DNA from: Paucimonas lemoignei | GTDB taxonomy: Bacteria; Pseudomonadota; Gammaproteobacteria; Burkholderiales; Burkholderiaceae_D | Length of the DNA stretch: 64,000 bases | Direction: 5' to 3' | NCBI RefSeq assembly: GCF_004342585.1 | Contig: NZ_SLZQ01000008.1 | Coordinates: 1-64,000, forward strand | Shown: piece after piece, positions 38,603 to 55,290 of the stretch | How the letters are laid out: each line of letters starts with the position of its first letter | Numbering within the stretch: position 1 is the first letter of the stretch | Translations under genes and position numbers: made by a program | Notes under the pieces: generated by a model | Told to the model about the DNA's origin: nothing | Databases searched by the model: none | Seen by the model: only the letters and a program-made list of their open reading frames with translations

Positions 38603-39118
38603 ATGAAACGCTTGCCCATTCTTGTGTTCCCGGCGATCCTCCTGGGAGGCTGCGTGGCGATGCCTTATGAGACTGACAGCGCAATCTATGCGGGTTATCC
38701 GGCAACGGTCACCGCACAGGCGGGCAGCGTTTATTATTACGATACCCAGCGAGTTTCCCCATACGGATACTCGTACCCCGCTCCCTATTACGGCAGACCG
38801 TATCCGCCACAAACCTATCCCTATCACCGACCGCCTGTCTATACGCCGCCGGCGCCGGTCATTGTGCCGCCTCCCATGGAATTCCACTACAGGCGGGATG
38901 CGCAGCCAGGCTGGCAAAACAGACCGCTTCCTCAACACGACCAGTTCCGCAACGGTCCGCAATCGAATTGGCGTCATCCCGGCACTCCGCCCTCCAACTT
39001 GGAACACCGGCGTGACGGACGATCCGATTCACAGCAACGTGAATGGGGGCGAAAGGACTGGGGGCAGCGCGACTATGGCTCGGGCAGCAATCATCGCGGT
39101 CATTCCTACCAGAGATAA
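38603..39118 (+). CDS. Tyr/Pro-rich lipoprotein
   Basis: This 171-residue protein has a lipoprotein signal (MKRLPILVFPAILLGGC) with Cys at about residue 17. The mature part is low complexity: Tyr/Pro-rich (about 35-95; YGYSYPAPYYGRPYPP) and then basic and Gln/Arg/Ser-rich to the end. A TGGAG motif lies 7 nt before the ATG. No domain is recognised. It is convergent with the ferredoxin-like gene of the formate dehydrogenase cluster (17-nt gap). Confidence 0.75.
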   Translation: MKRLPILVFPAILLGGCVAMPYETDSAIYAGYPATVTAQAGSVYYYDTQRVSPYGYSYPAPYYGRPYPPQTYPYHRPPVYTPPAPVIVPPPMEFHYRRDAQPGWQNRPLPQHDQFRNGPQSNWRHPGTPPSNLEHRRDGRSDSQQREWGRKDWGQRDYGSGSNHRGHSYQR

Positions 39119-39135
39119 TTGTTTGCCGTAGTCGC

Positions 39136-40854
39136 TTAGCGTCCCACCGAAGGCGGCTTCAATTCGACGATACGGGCTTCGCGCTGCCTCGTCATCATGT
39201 CAACCACCCGGCAATCGCCGCACATCTTAAGACGGTTGAGGTTGCCGGCAAACGCACCGTGCTGCGACAGCCTCTCCATCATATTCTCGATCATCTGCAC
39301 CGTGCCGAACGGCTTGCCGCAACGGATGCAGTTGAACGGCTGAGATTCGTTCAATACCACGGCCTTCTTCGATTCTTCGGTGAAGGCAACGCGCGGCACC
39401 AGCGTAATCGCATGCTCGGGGCAAGTCTTTTCGCACAGGCCGCACTGAACGCAGTTCTTTTCCACGAAGCGTAACTGCGGCGCATTCTGGCCATCCATCA
39501 GTGCCGATTCCGGGCAAGCACCGACGCATGACATGCAAAGCGTGCACGCTGCCTTATTGACGGCAATCGCGCCGAACGGCGACCCGGCTGGCATGGGAAT
39601 AATTTCCTTACGCGCAGGCGCGTGCCGGTAGAGATGGTCGAGCACGAAATCCAGTGTATTGCGCTTGTCGGCCGCCACGTGAAAGCTTGCCGGCTGCGCA
39701 GGCGCTTCTCCTTGCGGCGCACGGCGCAAATCTTCATCCAGCTCCGCCGGCGTCACTGCCTGGATGAGCGCCAGGTGAGCGCCCGCATAGCCCAGCTCTG
39801 ACAATATCGTTTGCGTGATATGCATTTGACGTCCGAGCGCTTCACGATACTGCGGCGCTTCCTCGTCTGTCGTCAGCACGGCGACGCCGCTTGCGCCATA
39901 AGCGATCGCCGCCAGCCACAGGTCGATGCCGATCGAGGCCGTATGGTGGACAGCGACAGGAATGACGCGTGCCGGGATGCCGTGTCGTCCATCTGTTGAT
40001 CCTTGCCGAGTCAATTCATTGATCAGCGTATTGCCACGCTTTTCGCTATGAAAAAGGATAAGCGGATAGCTGCCGCCATTGGTGATATATGCGGACAGCA
40101 TGGCTTTCAGGCGCCGCCCGATTTGCGGGGCATTCGGATAGGCATAAGTGAGCGCGCCGGACGGGCAAACCGTGGTGCAGGCGCCGCACCCCATGCATAG
40201 ATGCGGCTCCACGCGGATACGGTCGCCGGCCGGGCTGATCGCCGCCGTCGAGCATGTCTCGATGCAGGCATTGCAGCCTTCGATCTCATTGCGGCTATGG
40301 GCGCACAAGCGCTCCTTGTAATGGAAGTAGCGCGGCTTTTCGAATTCCCCCACCATCTGCGCCAACTGCACTGCGGCGCTCATCTGCGCCACCGGCTCAC
40401 GTCCAGCGGAAAAATAGCCTTGTGGCGGCTGGTGCAAGGAAATGAGCGGCACCGTGGACAGGTCGAGCACCAGATCAAAATTGCCGCGTCCATCCTCTTT
40501 GTTGTCGTCGGAGCCCTGTTCCGACGGCTGCCATTGCACTTCAAATGCGCCGAGCCAACCGTGAATGCGCATCACCTTTCCATGCAAAACCAGGCAGCCC
40601 GCTTGCCCGGAAAGCTCGGCTGCGCTGTTTTCCGGGCCTTCATCGGTGATCAATACGCATACGCTGAGGTTCTTGCTCAAGAGCCTGGCTAGCGGCAAGG
40701 CCTGGTCCGCGCTGCCGATAATCAGCGTTCGTCCGCGCGATGCATAAGTCACGGTTGCAACGGGGTCTGGCGGCGGCACTTCGGCATCAGCCAGCAGTGC
40801 CGCAGTCTTGGCGAGCGATTGCAGGCGTTCCGCCGCTTCACTAACTGGTGTCAC
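39136..40854 (-). CDS. Multi-cluster 4Fe-4S protein of the formate dehydrogenase locus
   Basis: This 572-residue protein has a first part (about 1-180) with no obvious cofactor site but a nucleotide-fold look (GRTLIIGSADQALPLARLL), then several Fe-S motifs: CNACIETC, CMGCGACTTVCP (about residue 222), CTLCMSCVGACP (about 438) and CVQCGLCEKTCP (about 470), plus a C-terminal CIRCGKPF...CGDC group that may bind zinc or another cluster. It could pass electrons between formate dehydrogenase and another acceptor or serve in maturation. It is the last gene of the cluster and overlaps the DUF3306 gene by 14 nt. Confidence 0.88.
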   Translation of the reverse strand: MTPVSEAAERLQSLAKTAALLADAEVPPPDPVATVTYASRGRTLIIGSADQALPLARLLSKNLSVCVLITDEGPENSAAELSGQAGCLVLHGKVMRIHGWLGAFEVQWQPSEQGSDDNKEDGRGNFDLVLDLSTVPLISLHQPPQGYFSAGREPVAQMSAAVQLAQMVGEFEKPRYFHYKERLCAHSRNEIEGCNACIETCSTAAISPAGDRIRVEPHLCMGCGACTTVCPSGALTYAYPNAPQIGRRLKAMLSAYITNGGSYPLILFHSEKRGNTLINELTRQGSTDGRHGIPARVIPVAVHHTASIGIDLWLAAIAYGASGVAVLTTDEEAPQYREALGRQMHITQTILSELGYAGAHLALIQAVTPAELDEDLRRAPQGEAPAQPASFHVAADKRNTLDFVLDHLYRHAPARKEIIPMPAGSPFGAIAVNKAACTLCMSCVGACPESALMDGQNAPQLRFVEKNCVQCGLCEKTCPEHAITLVPRVAFTEESKKAVVLNESQPFNCIRCGKPFGTVQMIENMMERLSQHGAFAGNLNRLKMCGDCRVVDMMTRQREARIVELKPPSVGR

Positions 40855-41437
40855 GATTCAGTTCTCCCTGTTTCTCTGTTGTCTGGCTTGTCGCCACAAT
40901 TTCTTCACCACAGTCAGCTGCGCATCCCTGCGCGTGCGTATCAGCCATGCCAGTCGGCTCGTGTTCATCCGGTGCCTCTTGCTCCTGCAGAAATCCCTGG
41001 GCTTGCCGCAGCGCCGCCAGCATCGGCGTTGGTAAAGGAATTGCCCGGTTGTAATCGCCCATGTAAATATCCAGGCCATCGGGCTGATTGAAATGCGGAT
41101 CAGTGAACAACTTTTTCAAGGCCAAGCGTCGCACACTTTTATCAACGCCTTTCGCCACGAAAGCCGAATAATCGGACTCCTGCGTCAAGTACATGGCGTC
41201 TTCCAGGGTTGGTACTCCTGGAGTGGAAGTGACAGCAGTGCCTGCGCCCGCCCGCGCAGGCGAACCGGATTCATTTTTCTTTTTGACACGCGCCACTTCA
41301 TGGCTGGCACGTTCGTCGTTTACTTCGTCACTGCCGACGGGTTGACGAACTTCCGCGCTGCCGCCGCTTTTCAGCCGCGACCAGCGTCGCAGGAATCCTT
41401 CACCTTCCACTTTTCCCCCTTGACCGGCATTCCCCAT
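40841..41437 (-). CDS. DUF3306 protein
   Basis: This 198-residue soluble protein carries the DUF3306 pattern. The N-terminus contains FLRRWSRLKSG, and the core (about 80-150) has LEDAMYLTQESDYSAFVAKGVD, ALKKLFTDPHFN and DGLDIYMGDYN. The C-terminus is acidic and disordered. DUF3306 is almost always encoded beside formate dehydrogenase with DUF3305 and the ferredoxin-like protein, as here, so a maturation or regulatory role is likely, but none is proven. It lies 14 nt after the DUF3305 gene. Confidence 0.9.
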   Translation of the reverse strand: MGNAGQGGKVEGEGFLRRWSRLKSGGSAEVRQPVGSDEVNDERASHEVARVKKKNESGSPARAGAGTAVTSTPGVPTLEDAMYLTQESDYSAFVAKGVDKSVRRLALKKLFTDPHFNQPDGLDIYMGDYNRAIPLPTPMLAALRQAQGFLQEQEAPDEHEPTGMADTHAQGCAADCGEEIVATSQTTEKQGELNRDTS

Positions 41438-41451
41438 AACCGATGCTCACC

Positions 41452-41913
41452 TTATCCATGCTGCCTGCCCCGCTTACCTTTAGGCGGCTGGTAATACATC
41501 TGCAGGTAACAGGTTAGCCAGGAACGGATTACCGCCGGCATCGGCACGCCATCTGCCGATTCGCCCGAATCGAGCATGCGGGTGCCTTCAGCATAACTGA
41601 CCGAGGCTTGCACGGGCATGGCGATGCCATCCTGCATGCGCCACATCACAAAAACCTTGGGTTCCGGCGCAACGCAATTTTCAAAATAGCCATCATTCTC
41701 GTCCGGATACAATTCGAGCGTAAGACCCGACACCAGGAAATGTCGGCGGCCATTACTTTCTTCACCTGTAGGGCTTTCCAGTTCCTGCACAGGCGGCAGT
41801 TCGCCACGATCCGGGACTATCCCTACCGCAGACCAGGCTTCATCATCCGCCCAGCGATGCTGAACGGTACGCCGCTGCATGATCACGGCAATCGGCATAC
41901 TGGCCATACGCAT
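41452..41913 (-). CDS. DUF3305 protein
   Basis: This 153-residue soluble protein is of the DUF3305 family. The start region MPIAVIMQRRTVQHRWADDEAWSAVGIVPD and the segment LELYPDENDGYFENCVAPEPKVFVMWR match the family pattern. The ATG at 41913 is 6 nt from GGGAG. It belongs to the formate dehydrogenase operon between a Pro/Ala-rich exported protein and DUF3306. The function is unknown; the association with formate dehydrogenase is well conserved in Burkholderiales. Confidence 0.9.
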   Translation of the reverse strand: MRMASMPIAVIMQRRTVQHRWADDEAWSAVGIVPDRGELPPVQELESPTGEESNGRRHFLVSGLTLELYPDENDGYFENCVAPEPKVFVMWRMQDGIAMPVQASVSYAEGTRMLDSGESADGVPMPAVIRSWLTCYLQMYYQPPKGKRGRQHG

Positions 41914-41927
41914 ACGATGCTCCCTTT

Positions 41928-42359
41928 TTATGACGATCCCGGCGGGCTGCCTGTCGGCTTCTTTTTGACGTTTTCGCTCGGCGGCGCCGTACCGGATTTT
42001 TCACTCTTCACCGGCGCCTCTTGTGCTGCACTACCCATGCGACCGCCCGGCTGCCCTGAAGCACTTGATTGCGCGGCAGGCGTACCTATGGCGGCAGCCG
42101 GCGCCGCCACCGGCGTTGGCGGATTCACTTTCTTGCCATGAGAGGGAGCATTCGCGCGCCAGCGGGCGGCAACGCTATCCATGGATGCCGCCAGGGCTTG
42201 CTTATCCTTTTCCGCCTGAGCGGCAGCCTTGGCTTTCTTATCTGCCGCAGCCTGTGCCTGGTCCGGTGTTGGCGCCGGTAGTTTGGCAAAGCCGAAACTC
42301 GATGCAGCAAGCATCAGGATGCCAAGCCCCGCATGTAAATATTTTCTCCATATTCCCAT
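41928..42359 (-). CDS. Small exported Ala/Pro-rich protein in the fdh operon
   Basis: This 143-residue protein starts MGIWRKYLHAGLGILML with AGGAGA 6 nt upstream, giving a signal peptide cut near GFA. The mature part is a charged Ala/Lys helix (QAQAAADKKAKAAAQAEKDK) followed by a disordered Pro/Ala/Ser tail. No known domain was found. A longer in-frame extension to 42563 overlaps the next gene and is rejected. The position 10 nt after the repeat-rich lipoprotein gene indicates co-transcription with the dehydrogenase genes. Confidence 0.7.
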   Translation of the reverse strand: MGIWRKYLHAGLGILMLAASSFGFAKLPAPTPDQAQAAADKKAKAAAQAEKDKQALAASMDSVAARWRANAPSHGKKVNPPTPVAAPAAAIGTPAAQSSASGQPGGRMGSAAQEAPVKSEKSGTAPPSENVKKKPTGSPPGSS

Positions 42360-42369
42360 CGCGGTTCTC

Positions 42370-42882
42370 CTAACGGCGGATAGTACTGGTTGTGCTCGAT
42401 GCCGAGCTTGCGCTCGTCGACGACCGGGTCGAAGCGGTAGAAGATGCTCCTCCAGACGGTGAAGCCTGCTCCGCGCTCTGCACACTGCCGCCAGTCGCGG
42501 CACCGCCAGTATTGCCGCCGCTTCCGCCGGGAATGCCCGGCGTGCCACTGGGTTGCGCGCCACCGGACTGCCCTGCCGATTGAGGGCTCACTCCCTGAGA
42601 CGGGCCGCGTCCGGATTCCTGCACGCTGCCGCCTGTGGCGGCACCGGACGTGTTGCCTCCGCTACCACCAGCAATGCCCGGAGTGCCGCCAGCATACGAA
42701 CCATCCGATTTCTGTGAGGAGCGTGCCATGACTTCGCCACTGGTGCCACCACCAGCCGTAATTTGTCCGGGAAACTTGGTTTGAGCCGCGCCGCTGCCTG
42801 ACCCGCTTTGCTCGCCACAGGCAGCTACGGAGGCCAGCATGGCTGTTGCGGTCAAATACATGAAGACTCGCCGTTTATCCAT
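42370..42882 (-). CDS. Gly/Ser-rich repeat lipoprotein in the fdh operon
   Basis: This 170-residue protein has a lipobox (MLASVAACGEQ, Cys near residue 22). The rest is low complexity and contains two near-identical copies of a unit with GTPGIAGGSGGNTSG and AATGGSVQ, about 50 residues apart, then a Ser/Thr-rich tail. AGGA lies 7 nt before the ATG at 42882. It lies 38 nt downstream of the cytochrome b subunit gene. No function is recognised; low-complexity lipoproteins are found in related fdh clusters. Confidence 0.7.
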   Translation of the reverse strand: MDKRRVFMYLTATAMLASVAACGEQSGSGSGAAQTKFPGQITAGGGTSGEVMARSSQKSDGSYAGGTPGIAGGSGGNTSGAATGGSVQESGRGPSQGVSPQSAGQSGGAQPSGTPGIPGGSGGNTGGAATGGSVQSAEQASPSGGASSTASTRSSTSASSASSTTSTIRR

Positions 42883-42920
42883 GTTGGTTTCCTTTGATAA
42901 AAGGGAATGCTGCTTTGCCA

Positions 42921-44012
42921 TCAATGATGGCGTGGATGCGGAGGGACATCGGCCGGTGGCGGCGCATGCGGCGGTACGCCGCCTCGCAGCTCGTCATACC
43001 AGTATTCGTGATGTTCCCGCGCCCACTCGGCATCCACGGTTCCGTGACGCATCGCCTTGTAAGCCAGCGGATCGGCCAGCGTTCCCATGTAGATATGGCC
43101 CAGCGCGCCGATGATATACAGTGTCGCGCCGCCGATGTGCAGATAGTTAGCCCACTGCAGCACGTAACGGGTTTGGCCGAAGGTGACGAAATCCAGGATC
43201 AGTCCCGTGATCGACATAACCAGGCCAAGCAATACCACGCCGCCCCAGAACCATAACTTTTCACCGGCATTGAAAAATCCTGCAGGTACATGCCGATGCG
43301 AGATCAATCCGCCACCCGACTTGATCCATTGCCAGTCGTGACGCTCGAAGAAGTTCCGGCTCAGGAAGGTAAAGAACATGAATAGCGAACAGACGATGAA
43401 CAGCGGCCCGACGAAGTTATGCAGGTATTTGGAAATGACCGCCACCCAGGAAAATACTTCATGTCCCATCCACGGCAACAACAGCTTCTTGCCGAACATG
43501 ATGATCAGGCCGGTGAAGGCGAGCACGAGGAAACTGATGGCAGTCGCCCAGTGCACGATGCGGTCCCATGCCGGAAAGCGGGTGATGCGCTGGCCGGTTT
43601 CCGGATGTTCGAGCCTTGCTGGACCTGTCAGCAGGTAAAAACCGAGGATCAGCAGCGGCACGACCAGCAGCGCAGTGCCGGCCACCATCGCGATGGGGCC
43701 ATCCCGCAGCGTGCGCCAGGTATTGCCCCCGCGCTGCAGGATGACTGTGCCTTCGGACGCGCCGTACTGGCCGAGATAATGGCGGTCGACATGCACCTTG
43801 CCTGATGACGCGGACGACCAGCCTGCCTCAGGCACATCCTTTTCCGCCTGGAGGATGGTCTGCTCTTCGGCATATGCGGGCACGGCATCCTTGTGCGGAA
43901 CCGCGGCGAATGCCATGGAGGCGCTCAGGAAGGCCAGCACCAGGAATAGCAGCACGCCGGAAATCCATTGCCGGCAAATAGTCATTGATCCCATTTCGCA
44001 CCTCTTCGTCAT
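42921..44012 (-). CDS. Formate dehydrogenase cytochrome b (gamma) subunit
   Basis: This 363-residue membrane subunit of the FdnI/FdoI type has a signal-like N-terminus (about 10-36), a periplasmic section and four transmembrane helices in the C-terminal two thirds. Heme-ligand histidines are visible in WDRIVHWATAISF, SKYLHNFVGPLF and YLHIGGATLYIIGALGHIYMG. It would anchor the catalytic and Fe-S subunits at the membrane and pass electrons to quinone. The start at 44012 overlaps the stop of the upstream lipoprotein gene (ATGA); a start at 43994, with AGAGG 6 nt upstream, is also possible. The tail is His/Pro-rich. Confidence 0.95.
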   Translation of the reverse strand: MTKRCEMGSMTICRQWISGVLLFLVLAFLSASMAFAAVPHKDAVPAYAEEQTILQAEKDVPEAGWSSASSGKVHVDRHYLGQYGASEGTVILQRGGNTWRTLRDGPIAMVAGTALLVVPLLILGFYLLTGPARLEHPETGQRITRFPAWDRIVHWATAISFLVLAFTGLIIMFGKKLLLPWMGHEVFSWVAVISKYLHNFVGPLFIVCSLFMFFTFLSRNFFERHDWQWIKSGGGLISHRHVPAGFFNAGEKLWFWGGVVLLGLVMSITGLILDFVTFGQTRYVLQWANYLHIGGATLYIIGALGHIYMGTLADPLAYKAMRHGTVDAEWAREHHEYWYDELRGGVPPHAPPPADVPPHPRHH

Positions 44013-44422
44013 GGCTTGACCTGCTTGCCCGCCCCACGATTGGCGTCAGCGGGAGAGGCTTGTGCCGGGGCAGTGCCTGTCGGGGCTGCCGTCGATGGCC
44101 GGGTCGCATTCGATTCCTGTGTTCCGGAATTCGTATCGGACGTTCCAGTCACGCCCAGCGTGCTGCGATTGGTAGAGGAAACGCCACCGACCGGCTCGAC
44201 ATCGCCCGGCCCGGTGCGTCCATATTCATTCTGTAAATGATTACGGTTTGCGATCGTGGCTGCCCACGCGAGTCTGTCTCCGTGGAAGTGGGATTGCGCC
44301 GGCCGGTCATCGCGCTTGCCGGCATATTCACCATTGACCCATTTCGGATGCTGCTCCACCTCCAGGCAGCCGCATAGCAACACGGCCGGCAGAACCAGAC
44401 TCAATATGCGAGACGTCTTCAT
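44009..44422 (-). CDS. Lipoprotein between formate dehydrogenase beta and gamma genes
   Basis: This 137-residue protein has a lipobox (LVLPAVLLCGC, Cys at residue 19). The segment HPKWVNGEYAGKRDDRPAQ and the following AWAATIANRNHLQNEYGRT look folded or heme-adjacent; the last 60 residues are Thr/Ser/Ala-rich and disordered. It overlaps its neighbours on both sides by ATGA, showing tight translational coupling with fdhB and the cytochrome b gene. It may be an accessory subunit. No family name is known to me. Confidence 0.78.
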   Translation of the reverse strand: MKTSRILSLVLPAVLLCGCLEVEQHPKWVNGEYAGKRDDRPAQSHFHGDRLAWAATIANRNHLQNEYGRTGPGDVEPVGGVSSTNRSTLGVTGTSDTNSGTQESNATRPSTAAPTGTAPAQASPADANRGAGKQVKP

Positions 44423-45102
44423 GACGGAAACTTTTTCGGGTTGTTTTGGAAATCGTCCCGGATCTGGTTGGGACGCGGACCGGTGCCCTTGTTTTGAATC
44501 TCGCCGCCGCGCTTGGGCTGGCCGTATGCAATTTGCCAGCCCCAGAGTTCGGGGCCATAGCCGCGCGTTTCGACGCGCTCGCGGTAGATGTTGGCAATGA
44601 TGTTGGCGTCGCCTCCCAACAGTGCCTTGGTGGCGCACTGCTCGGCGCAGACCGGCAGCTTGCCTTCGGCGATGCGGTTGCGGCCATACTTCTTGAATTC
44701 CACTTCCGAGGTATCCGGCTCCGGGCCGCCGGCGCAGAACGTGCATTTATCCATCTTGCCGCGGTGGTTGAACATCCCGGTTTCGGGGAATTGCGGCGCG
44801 CCGAACGGACAGGCATAGTAGCAATAGCCGCAACCGATGCATTGGTCCTTATCGTGCAGGACGATGCCATCCTCGGTGTGGTAGATGCAGTTGACCGGAC
44901 AGACCGCCAGGCAAGGCGCGTCGGTGCAATGCATGCATGCCACGGATATCGAATGCTCGCCCGGCACGCCATCGTTGATGGTCACCACGCGTCGCCGGTT
45001 AACGCCCCACGGCGTCTCATGCTCGTTCTTGCATGCCGTTACGCAGCCATTACAGTCGATGCAGCGCTCGGTATCGCAAATGAATTTCATCCTTGTCGCC
45101 AT
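44419..45102 (-). CDS. fdhB: Formate dehydrogenase iron-sulfur (beta) subunit
   Basis: This 227-residue electron-transfer subunit has four 4Fe-4S motifs: CIDCNGCVTAC (about residue 14), CMHCTDAPCLAVCP (about 56), CIGCGYCYYACP (about 88) and a split last motif CTFC...CAEQCATKAL. It would relay electrons from the catalytic subunit to cytochrome b. The start at 45102 has AGGAG upstream; an earlier in-frame ATG adds 14 unconserved residues. It lacks the C-terminal transmembrane anchor of E. coli FdnH. Confidence 0.96.
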   Translation of the reverse strand: MATRMKFICDTERCIDCNGCVTACKNEHETPWGVNRRRVVTINDGVPGEHSISVACMHCTDAPCLAVCPVNCIYHTEDGIVLHDKDQCIGCGYCYYACPFGAPQFPETGMFNHRGKMDKCTFCAGGPEPDTSEVEFKKYGRNRIAEGKLPVCAEQCATKALLGGDANIIANIYRERVETRGYGPELWGWQIAYGQPKRGGEIQNKGTGPRPNQIRDDFQNNPKKFPS

Positions 45103-45150
45103 CGTTATCTCCTGTCTCCTGTCGCCGTCCGGGCTACTGCGCATGCAGCG

Positions 45151-48027
45151 TCATGCGCGCGCCAGGCGGCATAGCGATACCTTGGTTTCCTGCATCATGG
45201 TCACGATGTCGTAACCGTAAGTCCAGCCGGTATTGACGGCTTCGCCCCGCACAATGGGCGCTGCGCCCTTCGGGTAATGTTCCAGCAAATCCTCGCCCAT
45301 CCACCAGCCGGCGAAATGGAATGGCATCCATACCATGCCCGATGCAACACGCTCGGTGACAAAAGCCATGACTTTCAGGCGTGCGCCCGTAGGCGTTTCC
45401 ACCCATACGTATTTGCCGGTGACCGCGCCAATCTGTGCCGCATCATGGGGATTCACTTCCACAAACATGTTTTGCTGCAGTTCCGCGAGCCATGGATTGG
45501 AACGCGTCTCATCGCCGCCGCCCTCATATTCCACCAGGCGGCCGGATGTCATGATGAGCGGGTAATCCTTGGAAAAATCTTTTGCCTGTACGGACTTGTA
45601 CAAGGTGGGCAGGCGCCAGAACGCTGCCTTGTCGTCATAGGTCGGATATTTCGCCACGAGGTCGCGCCGCGGCGACATCAGCGGTTCGCGATGTACCGGC
45701 ACCGGATCGGGGAAATTCCAGACGTGGCAGCGTGCCCGTGCATTGCCGAACGGCGCGCAACCATGGCCGATCACCACCCGGATAATGCCGCCCGAGTTAT
45801 CGGTCTTCCAGTTCTTGCCCTCGGCCTGCGCCTGCTCTTCCGGCGTCAGCTCGCTCCACCAGCCCAGCTTCTTCAGGAATACGTGATCGAACTCGGGATA
45901 GCCGGTATCGATCTCGCTATCCTTGGTGGTCGACCCATCCGCCGCCAGCAACGTTTTCCCATCATGCTCGACACCCCAGTTGGCGCGGAATGGCAAGCCG
46001 CCTTCGATCACCGGCTTGGAAAGATCATACAGCAGCGGCGTGCCCGGATGCTTCAGTTCCGGCGTGCCCCAGCATGGCCACGGCAAGCCGTAATAATCAC
46101 CCTTGCATGGGCCGGATTCGGCACGCAGCGTGGTGGGATTGAAGGTATGCTTGTTTTGCATGTGGAGCTTGAGACGCTCCGGGGAACAGCCTGTATAGCC
46201 GATGGTCCAGCATGAGCGGTTAATTTCACGCAGGATGTCTTCGATGACCGGCTCGTTATTGACTACCTTGATGTTCTTGCACAACTGCTCCGCGAAACCG
46301 AACTTCTTCGCGAACAGGTACATGATTTCCTGGTCGGTCTTGCATTCGTAAAGTGGCTGGATGACACGCTCGCGCCACTGGACACTGCGGTTACTGGCGG
46401 TAACCGAACCTGAAGTTTCGAACTGGGTCGTAGCCGGCAGCAGATACACGCCATCCTTGCGACCATGCATGGCAGCCGTCATGGTCGGGTATGGATCGAT
46501 GACCACCAGCATGTCCAGCTTCTGCATCGCCTCCTTCATGTCCGGCAGGCGGGTCTGGCTATTGGGCGCATGGCCCCAGTACAGCACGGCGCGCAGGTTG
46601 CTCGGCTGGTCCACGAATTCATTCTTTTCCAGGACGCCGTCGAACCAGCGCGATACCGTCAGACCCGGCTTTTCCATCAATTCCTTGGAAGCGAAGCGCG
46701 ACACCAGCCAGTTATAGTCTACCCCCCAGACGGTGGCGAAGTGCTTCCATGCCCCTTCGGCGATCCCATAGTAGCCCGGAAGGGAATCGGGATTGGGCCC
46801 GACATCCGTTGCGCCCTGCACATTGTCATGGCCACGGTAGATATTCGCGCCGCCCCCGGCAACGCCGATATTACCCAGTGCCAGCTGCAGAATCGATAGC
46901 GCGCGCACATTCGCAGTACCGACATGGTGCTGCGTGATGCCCATGCACCAGACTACCGACGATGGGCGGTTTTTCGCCAGAATTTCAGCGGCAAGCTTGA
47001 CGTGACCTTCGGATACACCGGTCACGTCCGTGACTTTCTCCGGTGTCCATTTGGCGACTTCCTTGCGGACTTCATCCATGCCGTAGGTGCGCTCGGCAAT
47101 AAATTTTTTGTCTTCCCAGCTGTTCTCGAAGATATGCCAGAGAATGCCCCATACCAGCGCGATATCCGTGCCCGGTCGAATACGCACGTAGTGATGCGCG
47201 AAACGCGCAGTACGCGTGAAGCGCGGATCGATGACGATCATCTTCGCGCCCAGTTCCTTCGCATGCAAGAAATGCAGCATGGAGATCGGGTGCGCTTCGG
47301 CGGGATTGGAGCCGATGAACAAGACGGCCTTGCTGTGGTGCAGGTCATTGAACGAATTCGTCATTGCCCCATACCCGTAGGTCTGGGCGACGCCCGCCAC
47401 CGTGGTCGAGTGACAGATGCGAGCCTGATGATCGCAATTGTTCGATCCCCACATCGAGATCCATTTGCGCATCAAATAGGATTGCTCATTGCTATGCTTG
47501 CTGCCGCCGATCATCATGATCGAATCCGGTCCGGCTTGCTGGCGCAATTGCAGCAGCCGGTCGCCGATTTCATTGATGGCCTGATCCCAGGAAATCCGCT
47601 GGTATTTACCATCGACGAGCTTCATCGGGTAACGCAAGCGATGTTCGCCATGGCCATGTTCGCGCACCGATGCGCCCTTGGCGCAGTGGGCTCCCATATT
47701 CAGCGGAGAGGCGAATGCCGTGTCCTGGCGAATCCAGACGCCGTTCTGCACTACCGCTTCGACGGAACAGCCGACGGAACAGTGAGTACAAACCGTATGC
47801 TTGACCTCCACCGCTCCTGTGGCAGCAGGCGGGGATTCCGCAGCCTGCGCCGGCTGGATCATGTTCAAGGGCAGATGGCGGGCCATGACGCCGGCGCCGG
47901 CTGCGACGCCAGCCCGCATCAGGAAGCCGCGCCGGTTCATGGTTGCGGCGCCGGCGCGCGCAATGCCTTCGAACAGAGCGGAACGCGTCGTGCCGTTACC
48001 GTCCCCGGATTTCTTCAGAAGTGACAT
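45151..48027 (-). CDS. fdhA: Formate dehydrogenase catalytic (alpha) subunit, Mo/W-bis-PGD
   Basis: This 958-residue enzyme of the DMSO reductase superfamily oxidises formate to CO2. It has a twin-arginine signal (NRRGFLMRAG, about 31-40), a 4Fe-4S motif (CTHCSVGCSVEAVV, about 80-93, with the distal Cys in GAHCAKGAS), and the active-site region ARICHSTTVAG with Cys as metal ligand instead of selenocysteine, followed by the catalytic His. The Tat signal places it in the periplasm. The ATG has AAGGAG 7 nt upstream. The neighbouring moeA, mobA, fdhD and tungstate transporter genes fit its cofactor needs; whether it uses Mo or W cannot be decided from the sequence. Confidence 0.97.
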   Translation of the reverse strand: MSLLKKSGDGNGTTRSALFEGIARAGAATMNRRGFLMRAGVAAGAGVMARHLPLNMIQPAQAAESPPAATGAVEVKHTVCTHCSVGCSVEAVVQNGVWIRQDTAFASPLNMGAHCAKGASVREHGHGEHRLRYPMKLVDGKYQRISWDQAINEIGDRLLQLRQQAGPDSIMMIGGSKHSNEQSYLMRKWISMWGSNNCDHQARICHSTTVAGVAQTYGYGAMTNSFNDLHHSKAVLFIGSNPAEAHPISMLHFLHAKELGAKMIVIDPRFTRTARFAHHYVRIRPGTDIALVWGILWHIFENSWEDKKFIAERTYGMDEVRKEVAKWTPEKVTDVTGVSEGHVKLAAEILAKNRPSSVVWCMGITQHHVGTANVRALSILQLALGNIGVAGGGANIYRGHDNVQGATDVGPNPDSLPGYYGIAEGAWKHFATVWGVDYNWLVSRFASKELMEKPGLTVSRWFDGVLEKNEFVDQPSNLRAVLYWGHAPNSQTRLPDMKEAMQKLDMLVVIDPYPTMTAAMHGRKDGVYLLPATTQFETSGSVTASNRSVQWRERVIQPLYECKTDQEIMYLFAKKFGFAEQLCKNIKVVNNEPVIEDILREINRSCWTIGYTGCSPERLKLHMQNKHTFNPTTLRAESGPCKGDYYGLPWPCWGTPELKHPGTPLLYDLSKPVIEGGLPFRANWGVEHDGKTLLAADGSTTKDSEIDTGYPEFDHVFLKKLGWWSELTPEEQAQAEGKNWKTDNSGGIIRVVIGHGCAPFGNARARCHVWNFPDPVPVHREPLMSPRRDLVAKYPTYDDKAAFWRLPTLYKSVQAKDFSKDYPLIMTSGRLVEYEGGGDETRSNPWLAELQQNMFVEVNPHDAAQIGAVTGKYVWVETPTGARLKVMAFVTERVASGMVWMPFHFAGWWMGEDLLEHYPKGAAPIVRGEAVNTGWTYGYDIVTMMQETKVSLCRLARA

Positions 48028-48048
48028 GGCCGGCTCCTTCGATCGGTG

Positions 48049-48273
48049 TTACCAGTAACGTGCGCTGCGGTAATACTCACGAATATGCTCCGTCTCGTGA
48101 TAGCCGCCGTCCGGCTGTTTATCGTCAGCCTTGGCTTGCTGTTGCGGCAGTGTCGGCGCCGCGGCGCCCTTGCCGAACAAGACCGCTATCGCCCCCAGTG
48201 CACCTGCGCCCTTTGCCGCATTCAGGAAGCGTCGCCGCCTGCCATCCACTTGCTCTGATTGCTTGTCTGCCAT
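48049..48273 (-). CDS. Small Tat-signal protein of the formate dehydrogenase region
   Basis: This 74-residue protein carries a twin-arginine-type signal (RRRRFLNAAKGAGALGAIAVLF) and ends in ETEHIREYYRSARYW. It matches the small formate-dehydrogenase-region Tat target proteins found directly upstream of fdhA. It may be a small subunit or assembly factor exported with the catalytic subunit. GGAGAAG lies just before the ATG. Confidence 0.88.
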   Translation of the reverse strand: MADKQSEQVDGRRRRFLNAAKGAGALGAIAVLFGKGAAAPTLPQQQAKADDKQPDGGYHETEHIREYYRSARYW

Positions 48274-48294
48274 AGCTCTTCTCCGTACCGCAAA

Positions 48295-48972
48295 TCAGTG
48301 GTCAACCATCTCCGATTCCATATCGAACGCTTCCGCATCGACGGCAAAAAACGCTTCGGTAAAATCCGCGAGCAGCCGATAGAAATTCGCTTCGGAGGCT
48401 ACCCGGATATCGTCACAGCACTTCCTGCTCCAGGATGCGATATGTTTTTCGAAGAATAGTTTCTGCCGGTGGAGTGATTGGCGCTTCACTCCCGGTGCCC
48501 CGGCAATCATGAGGCGCATGACTTCGCACAGCGCGCCAAGATGATCTTCGGTTTCACCCACGCCGCCGATGCGAGCCAGTCCAAGCTGGGTCAGTTCATC
48601 CCGCAAGCCGGCAAGCGGCTTCTCATTGAGAAATCCGGCAAGGTACAGCGAAGCGTAAGGATTGATTTTTGGCGTGCCGACGCTGATGAACAGCGCATTG
48701 AATTCTTCCTCGACCGCATCCGGTTCGAGGATACCGGCGGCGAGAACCAGTTTTTCCCACGCTGAATCCAGCGGGTGCTGGCTTGCTTGGCTGCCGAGCA
48801 TATCGGCTGAAGCAAGGCGAGTCAGGAGTTCGCCATCCGGCGCCGCAATCCAGAGCCGTGCCAGCAACGCATAGAAATCAGCGCGCGCCTGCTCTTCCTG
48901 CGGCAAAGGCGACAAAACCATGCCCTGGCCAGGCATCGCCTCGGCGCCACAATGTGCATGACTTGCTTGCAT
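48295..48972 (-). CDS. TorD/DmsD-family chaperone
   Basis: This 225-residue protein (start at 48972, MQASHAH) is a TorD-like helical chaperone. ARADFYALLARLWIAAPD near the N-terminus and EEEFNALFISVGTPKINPYASLYLAGF are typical. It should bind the Tat signal of the formate dehydrogenase alpha subunit and prevent export before cofactor insertion. It is the first gene of the operon, followed by the small Tat protein and fdhA. Confidence 0.92.
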   Translation of the reverse strand: MQASHAHCGAEAMPGQGMVLSPLPQEEQARADFYALLARLWIAAPDGELLTRLASADMLGSQASQHPLDSAWEKLVLAAGILEPDAVEEEFNALFISVGTPKINPYASLYLAGFLNEKPLAGLRDELTQLGLARIGGVGETEDHLGALCEVMRLMIAGAPGVKRQSLHRQKLFFEKHIASWSRKCCDDIRVASEANFYRLLADFTEAFFAVDAEAFDMESEMVDH

Positions 48973-49261
48973 CTGTCTCCACCCAATTATGACTGGCTTG
49001 TGCCACGTTGGTGCATTTTTAGGCTGCCTCACAGCATAGACAGAATCTTGCACAACGTTCTACATGATCAATCCAGAATTCGATGCGAATCAAATATGTG
49101 TCGGATCGAGAATTTGGCGGGAACTTTTATGAGGCAACTCCCGCAAGGGGTTACGTTGCCACGCCATGCGGCAAGGCATATAGCAGCGCTTCCCGCTGCA
49201 TGTATTTCGGGAGGTAGTGATGATTTGGCAGACCTGTCGGTCTTGCCGTTAGCTTGATGGT

Positions 49262-50548
49262 TTACACCAGGCCGTCGAACAGGATCACGTCAACCAGGTC
49301 ATCGGCTTTCACGCCACCCTGCTCATGCGACAGGACGATCATGCAGTTTGCCTCGGACATGGAACGCAGCACGCCGGAACCCTGCGACCCGGTGATGCGG
49401 ACTTGCATGCGTCCGTCCACCCCTGGCGACAACATGCCGCGCTGGTATTCGGTACGTCCGGGCTTTTTGCGGATATCGGACTGCGACACTGCCTGCATCA
49501 TCGGCAAAGGGGTTTGCTCGGCACCCATCATCCGCAACAAGGCTGCACGGGCAAAAAAATAAAACGTCACCATGACGGCCACCGGGTTGCCCGGCAAGCC
49601 GAACAGCCAGGCGCTTTTTCCGCCGGAAGTGATTTGTCCGAAAGCCATCGGGCGTCCCGGGCGCATGGCGATTTTCCAGAACAAGACTTCGCCCAGGCGC
49701 GCCATGATCTCCTTGGTGTAATCTGCTTCGCCGACCGACACGCCGCCCGAAGTGATCACCACGTCTGCGTTTTCGCAAGCCGACCGCAAGGCGGCTTCGA
49801 GCGCGACCGGATCATCCCTCACCACGCCCATATCGAGCAATTCGCAGCCGAGACGCGTCAGCATGCCGTAGAGCGTGTAACGATTGCTGTCATACACGCA
49901 GCCGCTTTCCAACGGCTCGCCAAGCGAACGCAATTCGTCGCCGGTCGAAAAAAAAGCCACGCGCAATCGCCGGTGCACCGGAACTTCGGCAATCCCCAGC
50001 GAGGCAATCAAGCCCAGGTCAGCTGGCTTGAGAATCCTGCCTTTATGCAAGGCCGGCGCGCCAGCACGCAAGTCCTCGCCCTGCAGGCGGCGGTTATCGC
50101 CAAGCCTCACCACACCTGCCGGAATGGCGACACCGGTATCGCCTTCAACTTGCACCAATTCCTGCGGCACCACGGTATCGCATCCCGGCGGCATCGGCGC
50201 GCCGGTCATGATCCGCACACATTCACCGGATGCGACTTTCCCGGTGAATCCTCCGCCTGCGAATGCGCTGCCGATAACACGAAGAGTCAGCGGAGCATTC
50301 GCCTGCAAATCAGCGCCGCGCAAGGCATAACCATCCATGGCGGAATTGTCATGCGCCGGAACGTGAATCGGCGAGATGATATCCTCGGCCAGCACACGGC
50401 CCAGCGCACTCCGCACGGCCAGCCTTTCGATACCGCTGACCGGCGACAGGCATTGCTGTATGAATTGCTGAGCCTGCTCTACCGGCAAGGCATTAGGGTC
50501 ATAGTCCGACAGGCAGCTGGCCGCTGCGGCAAGAGAAAATGGCTGCAT
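49262..50548 (-). CDS. moeA: Molybdopterin molybdotransferase
   Basis: This 428-residue MoeA inserts molybdate (or tungstate) into adenylated molybdopterin. Motifs include PVPAHDNSAMDGYA-type AHDNSAMDGYALRG, RIMTGAPMPPGCDTVVPQE, FSTGDEL, DSNRYTLYGML, VITSGGVSVGEADYTKEIM and LPGNPVAVMVTF. The C-terminal domain (about 350-428) is the MoeA domain IV type. It lies upstream of the formate dehydrogenase operon on the same strand and next to mobA, consistent with a dedicated cofactor supply. Confidence 0.96.
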   Translation of the reverse strand: MQPFSLAAAASCLSDYDPNALPVEQAQQFIQQCLSPVSGIERLAVRSALGRVLAEDIISPIHVPAHDNSAMDGYALRGADLQANAPLTLRVIGSAFAGGGFTGKVASGECVRIMTGAPMPPGCDTVVPQELVQVEGDTGVAIPAGVVRLGDNRRLQGEDLRAGAPALHKGRILKPADLGLIASLGIAEVPVHRRLRVAFFSTGDELRSLGEPLESGCVYDSNRYTLYGMLTRLGCELLDMGVVRDDPVALEAALRSACENADVVITSGGVSVGEADYTKEIMARLGEVLFWKIAMRPGRPMAFGQITSGGKSAWLFGLPGNPVAVMVTFYFFARAALLRMMGAEQTPLPMMQAVSQSDIRKKPGRTEYQRGMLSPGVDGRMQVRITGSQGSGVLRSMSEANCMIVLSHEQGGVKADDLVDVILFDGLV

Positions 50549-50609
50549 GGTAGATAAGCTTATTCTGGCGCTATAAGGCGCTAATTATGGCTAGCGATCA
50601 TGAGAAATA

Positions 50610-51209
50610 TTATTTTGCCTGATATTGCTGCAATTCATCCAGCGTATTGATGTTCCGAAATGCCGCTTCATCATCGAACGTCACTTCAGTCACGCGCAAC
50701 GAGGCATACCATGCATCGACTTTGCGCCCTCCCTTTGCAAGATAGGCCTCGAGATTCTGCAAGAGCGAGCACTTCATCAGGCAAAACACCGGGTGCGGCT
50801 GACGGCTGGCACCGCTGCCGGTTACGGCGACCGCCACATCGGCATCGTCATCAACCAGCGCATCGCCCAAGCGCTGCACCAGATCGGCCGGCAAAAACGG
50901 CGAATCGCACGGCGCGCTGACCAGATACGGTGTGGTGCAATGCGCCAGCCCGGCCTGCATTCCCGCCAGCGGCCCGGCGAAGCCCTCTACCTCGTCTGCC
51001 CAGACCGGGAAGCCAAACGAGCGGTACGTTTCCAGGTTTTGATTGGCATTGATCAGCACGCCAGCCACCTGAGGCGCCAGCCGTTCGATGACATGCGCAA
51101 CCATGGGCTTGCCGCGAAACTCCTGCAAGCCTTTGTCAACCGTGCCCATGCGTGTGCCGCGCCCACCTGCGAGAATCAGTCCCGAAATCGATGAAGTGTC
51201 TATTTTCAT
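50610..51209 (-). CDS. mobA: Molybdenum cofactor guanylyltransferase
   Basis: This 199-residue MobA joins GMP to molybdopterin to make the guanine dinucleotide form used by formate dehydrogenase. The nucleotide-binding start LILAGGRGTRMGTVDKGL, PMVAHVIERL, AGPLAGMQAGL and SAPCDSPFLPADLV are present. The start at 51209 (MKIDTSS) begins just before the conserved core. It is separated from moeA by 61 bp on the same strand. Confidence 0.95.
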   Translation of the reverse strand: MKIDTSSISGLILAGGRGTRMGTVDKGLQEFRGKPMVAHVIERLAPQVAGVLINANQNLETYRSFGFPVWADEVEGFAGPLAGMQAGLAHCTTPYLVSAPCDSPFLPADLVQRLGDALVDDDADVAVAVTGSGASRQPHPVFCLMKCSLLQNLEAYLAKGGRKVDAWYASLRVTEVTFDDEAAFRNINTLDELQQYQAK

Positions 51210-51421
51210 GCCCGCAGTATAGTGTGAACGGCACCATGCCACCATGACCTCTTCCGCCAGGATCGCTATTCGGCAAAAGAATTAGTTGATGCCGATCAAC
51301 CGCGCAAAGAAACCGATAAGGAATTCTGATCCAGACTGATTACACTTGTTGAACGACAAGCGCTTTTGCGCGTCGAAACATCGGGTTGCAAAAACCTCGT
51401 CCCATTCACCGATTCCACACC

Positions 51422-52264
51422 ATGCCCTATCGCCCGCAACTGTCCAGTGCAAGCGCTGTTCTGACCCGGGAAGTCGAAGCCATCGACGAGCGTGGCAGGA
51501 TTTCCCTCATTTCGATTCCGGCAGAACGTCCGCTGACCGTATATGTCGACCGGCGCGAACTCGTGACGCTCATGACGCTGGGAGCGGCACCTGAAGCACT
51601 GACACTCGGCTATTTGCGTAACCAGCGGCTGGTGCGTTCGCTGGACGACATCGATTCCATCCAGGTGGATTGGGATGTCGATGCCGTCGCCGTGAAGACA
51701 CGGCACGGCATTGCCGATATCGCCGAACGCACTTCCAAGAAAGTGGTGACGACAGGGTGCGGTCAGGGATCGGTATTCGGCGGCCTGATGGACGACATCG
51801 AACAAATCTCCCTGCCCCCGGATGCTAGGCTGCACCAATCGGTGCTGTACCAAATCGTCGACACCGTCCGCACCTATCCTTCCGTCTACAAGCAGGCAGG
51901 CTCGGTGCATGGCTGCGCACTGTTTTCCTCTGAAGGCGAACTGCTTTATTTCATCGAGGACGTCGGCCGGCACAATGCCGTCGATGCAATCGCCGGAAAG
52001 ATGTGGCTGGATGGTGTCACCGGCGGCGACAAGGTGTTCTACACCACCGGCAGGCTGACCTCGGAAATGGTGATCAAGGGTGCGCAGATGGGCATTCCCT
52101 TCCTGCTGTCGCGTTCAGGCACCACGCAAATGGGCCACATGGTAGCCCAGCGCCTGGGCATGTCGCTGCTGGCACGCTGCACGGGCAAGCATTTCCTGCT
52201 CCTGGCAGGCAAAGAGCGTCTCATCATGGATCCGACTCTTCTCGATGCCTTGCGCATCGCCTGA
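51422..52264 (+). CDS. fdhD: Formate dehydrogenase accessory sulfurtransferase
   Basis: This 280-residue FdhD passes sulfur from IscS to the molybdenum cofactor of formate dehydrogenase. Family segments are RPLTVYVDRREL, LGYLRNQRLV, GSVHGCALF, EDVGRHNAVDAIAGKMWL and GRLTSEMVIKGAQMGIPFLLSRSGTT. The cysteine region reads TTGCGQGS with a single Cys rather than the CxxC of the E. coli protein. It is divergent from mobA, and tupB follows 11 nt downstream. Confidence 0.95.
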   Translation: MPYRPQLSSASAVLTREVEAIDERGRISLISIPAERPLTVYVDRRELVTLMTLGAAPEALTLGYLRNQRLVRSLDDIDSIQVDWDVDAVAVKTRHGIADIAERTSKKVVTTGCGQGSVFGGLMDDIEQISLPPDARLHQSVLYQIVDTVRTYPSVYKQAGSVHGCALFSSEGELLYFIEDVGRHNAVDAIAGKMWLDGVTGGDKVFYTTGRLTSEMVIKGAQMGIPFLLSRSGTTQMGHMVAQRLGMSLLARCTGKHFLLLAGKERLIMDPTLLDALRIA

Positions 52265-52275
52265 GTTTACTTGCC

Positions 52276-52983
52276 ATGTCCATTCTTGCAGCCATCCGCG
52301 ATGCGTTTAGCCTGCTGTTTTCCGGCGACGCGGCGCTCCTCGAGATCATCGGCGTCTCGCTTAAAACCTCTCTGGTGGCCCTGGTCTTCGCAGCGCCGCT
52401 TGCCATCGGCATCGGCTATGCCATCGCCCAGCATGATTTCCCGGGCCGACGTATCGCCATCTGGCTGACACAGGCCTCCATGGCCATGCCGACCGTGCTG
52501 ATCGGCCTGCTGCTTTACCTGACCCTGTCACGCCAGGGGCCGCTCGGCGAACTGGAATGGCTGTTTGCACAGTCCGGCGTGATAGTCGGCCAAATCCTGA
52601 TTGCGCTGCCGGTGCTGACGGCGTTTTCACTGGCGGCCATTCAAGCCGTCGACCCGCGGATCGCCGAAACCGCCGTTACGCTGGGCGCATCGCGTCTTGC
52701 CATCATGCGCACCGTGCTGCATGAAGTGCGCTTTGGCGTGATGGCGGCGATCATCAGTGGCTTCGGCCGGGTGATTGCCGAAGTCGGTTGCGCGCTCATG
52801 GTGGGTGGCAACATCAAGGGGGAGACGCGCACCATCACCACCGCGATTGCCCTGGAAACCAGCAAGGGGGAATTCGCCCAGGGCATCGCGCTTGGCATAG
52901 TGCTGGTCAGCATTGCCCTGTTGATCAACGCGCTGCTGGTATGGCTGCAGGGAGACACGCGATTGAGCAGGAGCGCCACATGA
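52276..52983 (+). CDS. tupB: Tungstate ABC transporter permease
   Basis: This 235-residue inner membrane permease has about five helices and the EAA-type loop [21 protein letters not shown], which contacts the ATPase. The sequence pattern and the single-permease layout fit TupB of the TupABC tungstate system. It lies 11 nt behind fdhD and overlaps tupC by ATGA. The tungstate assignment rests mainly on the TupA protein encoded at 53671-54504. Confidence 0.9.
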
Positions 52984-53654
52984 ATCCCCTGCTCTCCATG
53001 TATCGACTGCGCAAGCAATTCGGCCAGCGCCAGTTATTCGATATCGATGCGCTGGTTGTCTGTACTGCCAGTGCCTATGCGCTGACCGGTCTGAACGGTA
53101 GCGGCAAATCGACGCTGCTAAAGATTCTTGCCGGCCTGGAGAAAGCGGATATCGGCGAAGCCTGTTTTCATGGGCATCGAATCGAACTCCATCCCTATCC
53201 GCAGGAAATGCGCAATGCGATAGTTTATGTGCACCAGCATCCCGTCATGTTTTCAACCAGTGTTGCCGACAATATCGGCTATGGCCTGGCGAGACGCGGA
53301 TTTTGCAAGCGCGACATCGAGCACTTGGTCGCCGAAGCTATCGACTGGGCGGATATCGCGCACCTGTTAAAGAGTAATCCGCTGACTCTTTCCGGCGGCG
53401 AAAAACAACGGGTGGCGCTCGCACGTGCGAAGGTATTGAAGCCGGAATTGCTGCTACTCGACGAACCCACCGCCAGTCTGGACGGAGCAGCGCGCGAACA
53501 GGTGATTTCCCTGATCTCCGATCTGACTGCCGCTGGCGGCAGCGTCATGATGGCCACGCACGACCGTGACCTGATCAGACTGCGCGGCGTCCAGCGCCTG
53601 AAGCTGCAGGATGGCCGGCTTCAGGCGCGGCAAAACCGCATCCGGGTGGCGTGA
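52980..53654 (+). CDS. tupC: Tungstate ABC transporter ATP-binding protein
   Basis: This 224-residue ATPase has Walker [10 protein letters not shown] (about residue 37), signature [15 protein letters not shown] and Walker [13 protein letters not shown], with a downstream His in MMATHDRD. There is no C-terminal molybdate-binding (TOBE/MOP) domain as in ModC, which favours TupC. The start overlaps the tupB stop. The binding-protein gene tupA is convergent just downstream. Confidence 0.92.
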
Positions 53655-53670
53655 AGATAGTGCCTCGGCG

Positions 53671-54504
53671 TCACTTACCTGGTTCAGCATTCGGATAGAA
53701 CACTTGCTGACCATCGATCGTAAAGGATTTGATTTTTTGCTGGCCTGCCGGCGATGTCATCCAATCGATCAGACGCATTGCCGCCCTATATTTCGCATGC
53801 TTGTGTTTGGCTGGATTGACGGCAATGATGCCGTACGGGTTGAACATTTTAGGGTCGCCCTCCAGTACGATAGCCAGTCCCGTCTTGGCACGATACGCCA
53901 AGTAGGTCGCGCGATCCGTCAGCGTATAGGCCTGCATCTGCGCCGCCATGTTCAGCACCTCTCCCATGCCAAGCCCTGCCGAGACGTAGGCGCTGCCGGA
54001 CGGCTTGGCGCCCAGTTGCTTCCAATACCCCTGCTCCATCAGGTCGGTCCCTGAATTGTCGCCGCGCGATATGAACTTGCTCTTCGTTTCGACGATGCGC
54101 TGCAAGCCTTTCAGCACATCCTTGCCTGCCTTGCGCACGCCTGCAGGATCACCCTTCGGCCCCACCAGGATGAAGTCGTTGTACATTACATCGCGACGAT
54201 TGACGCCATAACCCTCTTGCACGAATTTGTCTTCCGACTCGCGGGCGTGGACAAGCGTGACATCGACATCGCCGTTTTTCGCCAGCTCCAATGCCTTGCC
54301 CGTACCCACTGCAATCACCTGGACCTTGATTCCGGTTTCGGATTCGAATTGCGGAAGAAGATATGCCAGCAGGCCGGAGTTTTCCGTGCTTGTCGTCGTC
54401 GACATTTTCAGGACATCATTTCCCTCTTGCGCCCATCCCCATGACGGCACCATTAGGATCGCAGCCAACAGGCCGAGAAATTTACGACGAATCCTTGCAT
54501 GCAT
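53671..54504 (-). CDS. tupA: Tungstate-binding periplasmic protein
   Basis: This 277-residue solute-binding protein has a signal peptide (MHARIRRKFLGLLAAILMV, cut near GWA). The mature start LKMSTTTSTENSGLLAYLLP contains the TTTS motif characteristic of TupA, and VIAVGTGKALELAKNGDVDVTLVHARESE is likewise typical. AAGGAG lies 6 nt before the ATG. Unlike most tup operons, tupA is on the opposite strand, convergent with tupBC (16-nt gap), so it must have its own promoter. Confidence 0.93.
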   Translation of the reverse strand: MHARIRRKFLGLLAAILMVPSWGWAQEGNDVLKMSTTTSTENSGLLAYLLPQFESETGIKVQVIAVGTGKALELAKNGDVDVTLVHARESEDKFVQEGYGVNRRDVMYNDFILVGPKGDPAGVRKAGKDVLKGLQRIVETKSKFISRGDNSGTDLMEQGYWKQLGAKPSGSAYVSAGLGMGEVLNMAAQMQAYTLTDRATYLAYRAKTGLAIVLEGDPKMFNPYGIIAVNPAKHKHAKYRAAMRLIDWMTSPAGQQKIKSFTIDGQQVFYPNAEPGK

Positions 54505-54726
54505 CGATGTCTCCTTTCGCTCGGCTATAGGGTTACATGCAGGCGTGTTTATCCTCATTCGCATGAGCAAATTTGAGAAAGTGTGGAGACAATTTCAATC
54601 CTCGCTTTGCCACTTATCAATTAAGCGCTTTCGAAATGCCATGAGAACTCGCGACAACTTATTTGGACAAGCTGCCATCCATAGAAGCGCTATGCTGTAA
54701 TCAATACAGACAATGAGGATAGCGGC

Positions 54727-55203: not shown

Positions 55204-55226
55204 AGGATGTTTCACTGAATATGTAA

Positions 55227-55260
55227 AGGGGTTACGGATCCTGGCATTTCCGTAACCCCT
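55227..55260. terminator. Stem-loop between convergent genes
   Basis: A perfect 12-bp stem (AGGGGTTACGGA with TCCGTAACCCCT) with a 10-nt loop lies between the nuclease-like and CHRD genes. No strong T-run follows on either strand, so termination efficiency is uncertain. Confidence 0.65.
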
Positions 55261-55290
55261 CATACCCGCTTTCTTTACCAGGCTACGTCT

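Follow-up and report, generated by a model that had tools for sequence, protein, structure and literature searches.

The first 64,000 nucleotides of contig NZ_SLZQ01000008.1 (C8) in the 4.2-Mb genome of Paucimonas lemoignei, hereafter the window, carry a membrane formate dehydrogenase (FDH) locus beside genes for a tungstate transporter, TupABC. We consider it probable that this locus encodes an FDH3-type, periplasm-facing and membrane-anchored FdhABC whose cysteine-ligated bis(molybdopterin guanine dinucleotide) (bis-MGD) center normally carries tungsten, together with its own line of metal supply and enzyme maturation. The kind of locus is itself known: links between Tup and FDH have been reported case by case, including in Campylobacter jejuni to judge from a title, and the Shewanella enzyme SoFdhAB is a known case of tungsten held by cysteine. 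The useful new result is that FDH3-type enzymes and Tup transporters form a near-obligate pair, which reaches far beyond gene linkage. We found no statement of this rule in the literature searched, which covered few subscription papers and is weak evidence of absence.

The catalytic subunit has a close relative among solved structures. Residues 27–958 of FdhA align to chain A of PDB entry 9VAP at 1310 bits and 59% identity (552/928 aligned residues), the next solved structure reaching 308 bits, and the FDH3 beta and FDH gamma profiles both exceed their curated cut-offs in the neighboring subunit genes (Table 1). Entry 9VAP is SoFdhAB of Shewanella oneidensis MR-1, listed as an oxygen-tolerant membrane FDH with Cys-ligated tungsten in a 2026 Chemical Reviews article (PMC13397495). 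The window enzyme shares the cysteine ligand: Cys205 aligns with Sec140 of E. coli FDH-H, and this residue is kept in 27/27 FdhA rows (the window, its own locus copy, and 25 from relatives). Tunnel residues H653, V666, and T927 of SoFdhA also have their equivalents in the window FdhA, and S. oneidensis MR-1 owns TupA and TupB as well (SO_4719/4720). An earlier note, made from the letters of the window, had proposed that the membrane FDH with its Cys ligand uses tungsten, or can do so, and the identity to a Cys-W enzyme supports this proposal. The two enzymes differ at the gate residue Tyr776, tied to oxygen tolerance in SoFdhA (PMC13397495) and replaced by Met784 in the window, so that oxygen tolerance is not to be assumed for the window enzyme. 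FdhA proteins of the window’s family fall into two subtypes, that of the window (82–92% identity, own copy excluded) and a second one (64–68%); the gate position was Met, Leu, Val, or Ala, never Tyr, in the aligned window-subtype rows, and Tyr (3/4) or Phe (1/4) in the second-subtype rows.

The same note had pointed to a TTTS motif in TupA and to a TupC lacking the molybdate-type regulatory domain, and both observations held. The motif, shared with D. alaskensis TupA, occupies TupA residues 58–61 (numbered from the mechanical open reading frame 53671–54570, within which position 54504, the right end given in the note, is an in-frame ATG), and residues H108, R169, T175, and D219 align with H59, R118, T124, and D170, which form the tungstate pocket of D. 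alaskensis TupA, a protein with an affinity of 6.3 pM for tungstate and 6.1 nM for molybdate (PMC5517513). Solved structures matched best by TupA are all of the TupA type: 3lr1 (58% identity), 3muq, 5my5, and 3kn3. For TupC (224 aa), only ATPase-type Pfam models matched at E 0.001 and no TOBE or Mop domain was reported, as in TupABC of D. alaskensis and C. jejuni, whose ATPase likewise has no reported regulatory domain; these two systems form one co-directional cluster, whereas tupA of the window is convergent with tupBC. Taken alone, a TTTS motif and a TupC without regulatory domain are insufficient to support a tungsten reading. Further support comes from the retained TupA pocket and from a near-perfect co-occurrence of FDH3 and Tup in two genome samples in which ModA is present anyway.

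These samples comprised 195 genomes of the window’s family and 398 genomes of the phylum Pseudomonadota, with at least G000, G013, G018, and G028 shared between the two. In the family, TupA was detected in 86 genomes, TupB in 89, and an FDH3-type FdhA in 71 (34 with the window subtype and 47 with the second, including 10 with both). All 71 FdhA-positive genomes (71/71) had tupB, and 106/195 had neither gene (Fisher 1.5e-36). The TupB count started from 104 genomes at E 1e-20, from which 15 with only weak ModB-like matches (76–86 bits) were left out, and three more (G088, G091, G183), in which TupB matched and TupA did not, were counted as tup. FDH3 presence varies within eight genera of the family sample, and shuffling the labels within genera gave a mean of 9.8 FDH3 genomes without tup and a minimum of 4 in 20,000 shuffles, against an observed 0. 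In the phylum, TupA was counted at ≥120 bits, which left out two genomes (G276, G504) with lower-scoring TupA matches, and 60/61 FdhA-positive genomes had TupA (Fisher 2.4e-56). FdhA searches scored at most four (family) or two (phylum) candidates per genome, so that FDH3-negative genomes may include misses; the finding that FDH3 implies Tup cannot arise from this limit. The co-occurrence persisted even where fdhA was not within 15 kb of tupB, i.e., in 29/34 window-subtype genomes, 24 of which had the two genes on different contigs.

Tup does not stand in for a missing molybdate transporter. ModA was detected in 187/195 family genomes at E 0.001 (185 over the curated cut-off), including 88/89 tup genomes and 99/106 tup-less ones, and Tup is therefore additional to Mod and not its replacement. 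The P. lemoignei genome itself has modA, and a modB-like neighbor was also matched, weakly, in the TupB search. It further holds four PF00384 matches, one of them NuoG-like by appearance, and its candidate molybdenum enzymes are an NAD-FDH-like and an assimilatory-nitrate-reductase-like protein, both named by sequence appearance only.

A doubtful alternative is a dual-metal FDH that would take molybdenum or tungsten according to supply, with TupABC only raising activity through the better metal. Such an enzyme would fit a C. jejuni study in which, by its title, tungstate reportedly stimulates FDH activity. It would also fit the modA gene of P. lemoignei and the nanomolar binding of molybdate by D. 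alaskensis TupA (PMC5517513). A dispensable supplier should nevertheless sometimes be lost, yet tup was lacking in 0/71 family and 1/61 phylum FDH3 genomes, which weakens this alternative.

Several points weigh against tungsten as the normal metal of the window enzyme. TupA and TupB fall short of the NCBIfam equivalog thresholds, 400 bits for the former and 320 bits for the latter (Table 1). D. alaskensis TupA, whose biochemistry has been studied, also stays below the TupA cut-off, at 352.8 bits for its aligned 249 aa, so that this cut-off is not excluding; the aligned part of G. sulfurreducens TupA scores 237.3 bits. These cut-offs are taken here as naming thresholds, not as defining features. 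The review passage on SoFdhAB is silent on whether a molybdenum form was tried (PMC13397495). In the genome samples, tup occurred without an FDH3 match in 18/89 family and 14/74 phylum tup genomes, so that Tup has further uses or FDH3 escaped detection there, and the Fisher values are overstated because the genomes are related. The sole phylum exception, G489, has an FDH3 cluster with moeA, mobA, and fdhD (C11:667145-682245), with no TupA at threshold genome-wide and neither TupA nor TupB in the surrounding 100 kb. Of the 34 family genomes with the window FDH subtype, only 5, three of them from the window’s genus, have it at ≤15 kb from tupB. Finally, Cupriavidus necator resembles P. lemoignei in having membrane-bound FDHs, there beside a soluble Fds enzyme. 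The paper describing them assigns these membrane FDHs a molybdenum cofactor, which would bear on the window enzyme if they are of the FDH3 type, and in C. necator they were not the main route of growth on formate.

Part of this evidence would fit a molybdenum FDH, with tup nearby through shared cofactor genes and TupABC acting as a second molybdenum importer or serving another tungsten enzyme, an account that we regard as very improbable. The genes moeA, mobA, and fdhD are indeed shared cofactor genes, and both the 18 family tup genomes without an FDH3 match and the C. necator assignment speak for it. It sits poorly with the co-occurrence in the 29/34 window-subtype genomes lacking close linkage, with the ModA already present, and with the tungsten found in the homolog SoFdhAB (PMC13397495).

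Extending the tungsten reading beyond the window, we lean, if only slightly, toward FDH3-type FDHs as a whole being a tungsten clade, with TupABC nearly indispensable to them throughout Pseudomonadota and tup usable to assign the metal. FDH3-type FdhA was found in 61/398 phylum genomes (~15%), many of them presumably aerobic, and if the extension is true, tungsten use would be common in ordinary proteobacteria and not a speciality of anaerobes and archaea. For comparison, TupABC has been recorded in 18.6% of molybdenum-using bacteria (PMC6147048). The metal of an FDH is rarely deducible from sequence, and the pairing of an FDH type with a tungstate importer provides a simple, testable rule, which marks many proteobacteria as likely tungsten users as well as CO2/formate enzymes that should be produced with tungstate, not molybdate.

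Metal choice might also be exerted at the insertase. In M. extorquens MoeA1, the choice of tungsten has been tied to Arg291 and Ala312 (PMC13197769), and the corresponding residues of the window MoeA are Arg299 and Ala324; a second MoeA of the same genome (C8:112637-113143) has Lys and Ser there, as in E. coli. The window MoeA could accordingly be a tungsten-specific insertase and the block a separate tungsten-cofactor pathway, with the second MoeA making the molybdenum cofactor, a scenario that would be compatible with a tungsten FdhABC but that we hold to be unlikely. Besides the residue pair, it draws on the M. extorquens cluster moeA1-mobB-tupBCA and on the FDH-adjacent MoeAs of phylum genomes G206 and G489, also of the Arg/Ala type. 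The control failed, however: among 70 of 192 MoeA-positive genomes, chosen by score and tup status and thus non-random, the Arg/Ala orthologue was present in 48/48 tup genomes (own included) and in 21/22 tup-less ones, the remaining one being Lys/Ala. With these tup-less genomes and G489, which has no tup, carrying the pair, it is not a tungsten marker in the family, and we rejected it as a signature. The tungsten pathway of M. extorquens MeFDH1 remains a partial parallel, in that its Tup transporter clusters with a moeA and FdhD is required (PMC13197769). It differs in that MeFDH1 is a CO2-reducing, NAD-linked FDH of another type (PMC13397495), in that the MoeA residue pair does not track tup in the window’s family, and in the mobB of its cluster, which was not recognized in the window block.

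For the tungsten FdhABC that we favor, the gene content of the locus suggests a possible route from metal to electron. Judging from homology, TupA would capture periplasmic tungstate and TupBC would import it; MoeA and MobA would make the bis-MGD cofactor, and TorD and FdhD would load and sulfurate the apo-enzyme before Tat export, as their families indicate. FdhB and FdhC may then pass formate electrons to the quinone pool. Molybdenum enzymes in the same cell probably have a supply of their own through a Mod system.

The structural genes, moeA, mobA, fdhD, and the three tup genes were all recovered by profile searches where the earlier note had placed them (Table 1). A minus-strand run leads from mobA (51245) through moeA, torD, the TAT-target gene, fdhA, fdhB, fdhC, and the DUF3305 and DUF3306 genes down to a polyferredoxin gene (39136), and a 140-bp gap separates it from the plus-strand genes fdhD-tupB-tupC. 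There, fdhD ends 11 bp upstream of tupB, which makes joint expression of this FDH sulfurtransferase with the metal importer probable, and tupB and tupC overlap by ATGA. Convergent tupA follows, its stop codon 16 bp from that of tupC. FdhD scores below both of its NCBIfam cut-offs (NF001943, TIGR00129). Between the fdh genes, at 41928-42924 and 44009-44418, lie small secreted or lipoprotein-like open reading frames with no Pfam match at 0.001.

Table 1 Features of the FDH–Tup locus in the window.
Feature	Coordinates	Strand	Evidence
Polyferredoxin, 572 aa, FDH3 cluster, several 4Fe-4S motifs	39136..40854	-	Pfam Fer4 models
DUF3306 protein	40841..41437	-	PF11748, 96.9 bits
DUF3305 protein	41452..41913	-	PF11749, 121.5 bits
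fdhC, cytochrome b (gamma) subunit, N-terminal extension	42921..44012	-	TIGR01583, 159.2 bits (cut-off 115.85); PF01292
fdhB, FDH3-type iron-sulfur subunit	44419..45144	-	NF038355 FDH3_beta, 337.2 bits (cut-off 240)
fdhA, catalytic subunit, twin-arginine signal	45151..48027	-	9vap_A, 1310 bits; Pfam Molybdopterin, Molydop_binding, Molybdop_Fe4S4
Formate dehydrogenase region TAT-target protein	48049..48273	-	TIGR02811, 47.1 bits (just below cut-off 48.45)
torD-like maturation chaperone	48295..49053	-	PF02613, 82.5 bits
moeA, molybdopterin metal insertase, Arg299/Ala324 type	49262..50548	-	NF007960, 586.8 bits (cut-off 440)
mobA, guanylyltransferase	50610..51245	-	TIGR02665, 232.5 bits (cut-off 151.85)
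fdhD, FDH sulfurtransferase, first gene of fdhD-tupB-tupC	51386..52264	+	NF001943, 132.3 bits (cut-off 269); TIGR00129, 118.5 bits (cut-off 140.9)
tupB, permease	52276..52983	+	NF038017, 210.8 bits (cut-off 100); NF041773 TupB, 196 bits (cut-off 320)
tupC, ATPase	52980..53654	+	PF00005, 98 bits
tupA, periplasmic tungstate-binding protein	53671..54504	-	3lr1, 277 bits; NF041772, 233.6 bits (cut-off 400)

Gene neighborhoods were compared among named relatives, i.e., the best 80 of at least 564 confirmed stretches. The nearest of these by TupA is UBA8502 (L040), a metagenome-assembled genome of Oxalobacteraceae, with a gene order identical to that of the window across its 10-kb flank. Within this set, fdhD adjoined tupB in 34/38 loci showing tupB, and fdhD-tupBC thus forms a conserved core there. 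The second FDH subtype lay within 15 kb of tupB in 25/47 family genomes, and fdhA and tupA were ≤30.5 kb apart in 27/60 co-positive phylum genomes, 30 kb being <1% of a 4–5 Mb genome (by simple arithmetic, not a formal chance model). Polyferredoxin homologs were found near fdhA in L057, L062, L110, and G489. Relatives whose compared loci hold FDH3 together with tup include Noviherbaspirillum denitrificans (L057), N. autotrophicum (L062), and Massilia aurea (L104).

The convergent orientation of tupA, described earlier as unusual, proved to be rare. Among 86 family genomes with both genes, tupB and tupA were on one strand with tupA downstream in 44 and upstream in 2, and convergent in 3, all from the window’s genus. 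In the other 37, tupA was not within 5 kb of tupB; five of these are certain (one contig, 0.4–2.1 Mb apart) and 32 had the genes on different contigs, some maybe through contig-edge effects. In a TupA tree, the convergent rows (the window, G103, UBA8502, and G030; the G103 and UBA8502 rows do not differ and could stem from a single genome) formed one clade with support 100/98, the bootstrap having not settled, and a convergent tupA most simply arose once. This clade sits in a poorly resolved region of mixed orphan and operon tupA. We had expected an orphan tupA to have moved beside tupBC, an origin not retained, as the tree with its mixed region does not separate capture from inversion.

Some solitary tupA genes have a divergent neighbor encoding a LysR-HTH plus PBP_like (PF12727) protein, e.g., L041:8645-9748. 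Among the best 80 relatives, this arrangement occurred in 16/42 loci without tupB (of which L052 shows a TupC-like match and several have short flanks) and in 1/37 co-directional loci, and 13 of the 16 proteins are ≥50% identical to the L041 copy. This protein is a possible oxyanion-sensing regulator, responding to tungstate or molybdate. A PBP-like domain fused to MoeA has been described as co-occurring with TupA (PMC11733289), and we infer that the PBP domains of the two proteins are related. No match to the LysR-HTH/PBP_like protein was found in the P. lemoignei genome at E 1e-20. Searches for other regulatory elements gave nothing at the Rfam gathering threshold in the window, the sub-threshold matches to mir-1893 and SECIS_3 within 38000-56000 being taken as chance. 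Promoter-like sites were no more numerous than in shuffled sequence (2 vs 3.3), and terminator-like sites slightly exceeded the shuffled level (11 vs 7.6, sd 2.5).

Elsewhere in the window, a protein with a long Thr/Ser/Gly-rich low-complexity tail is encoded near tupA, at 55291-56148. The region 2049-31345 encodes FHA-domain proteins, HlyD and OEP components, Ser/Thr kinases (one with MORN repeats), a sigma-54 activator, and a C39-peptidase ABC exporter with cyclic-nucleotide-binding domains.

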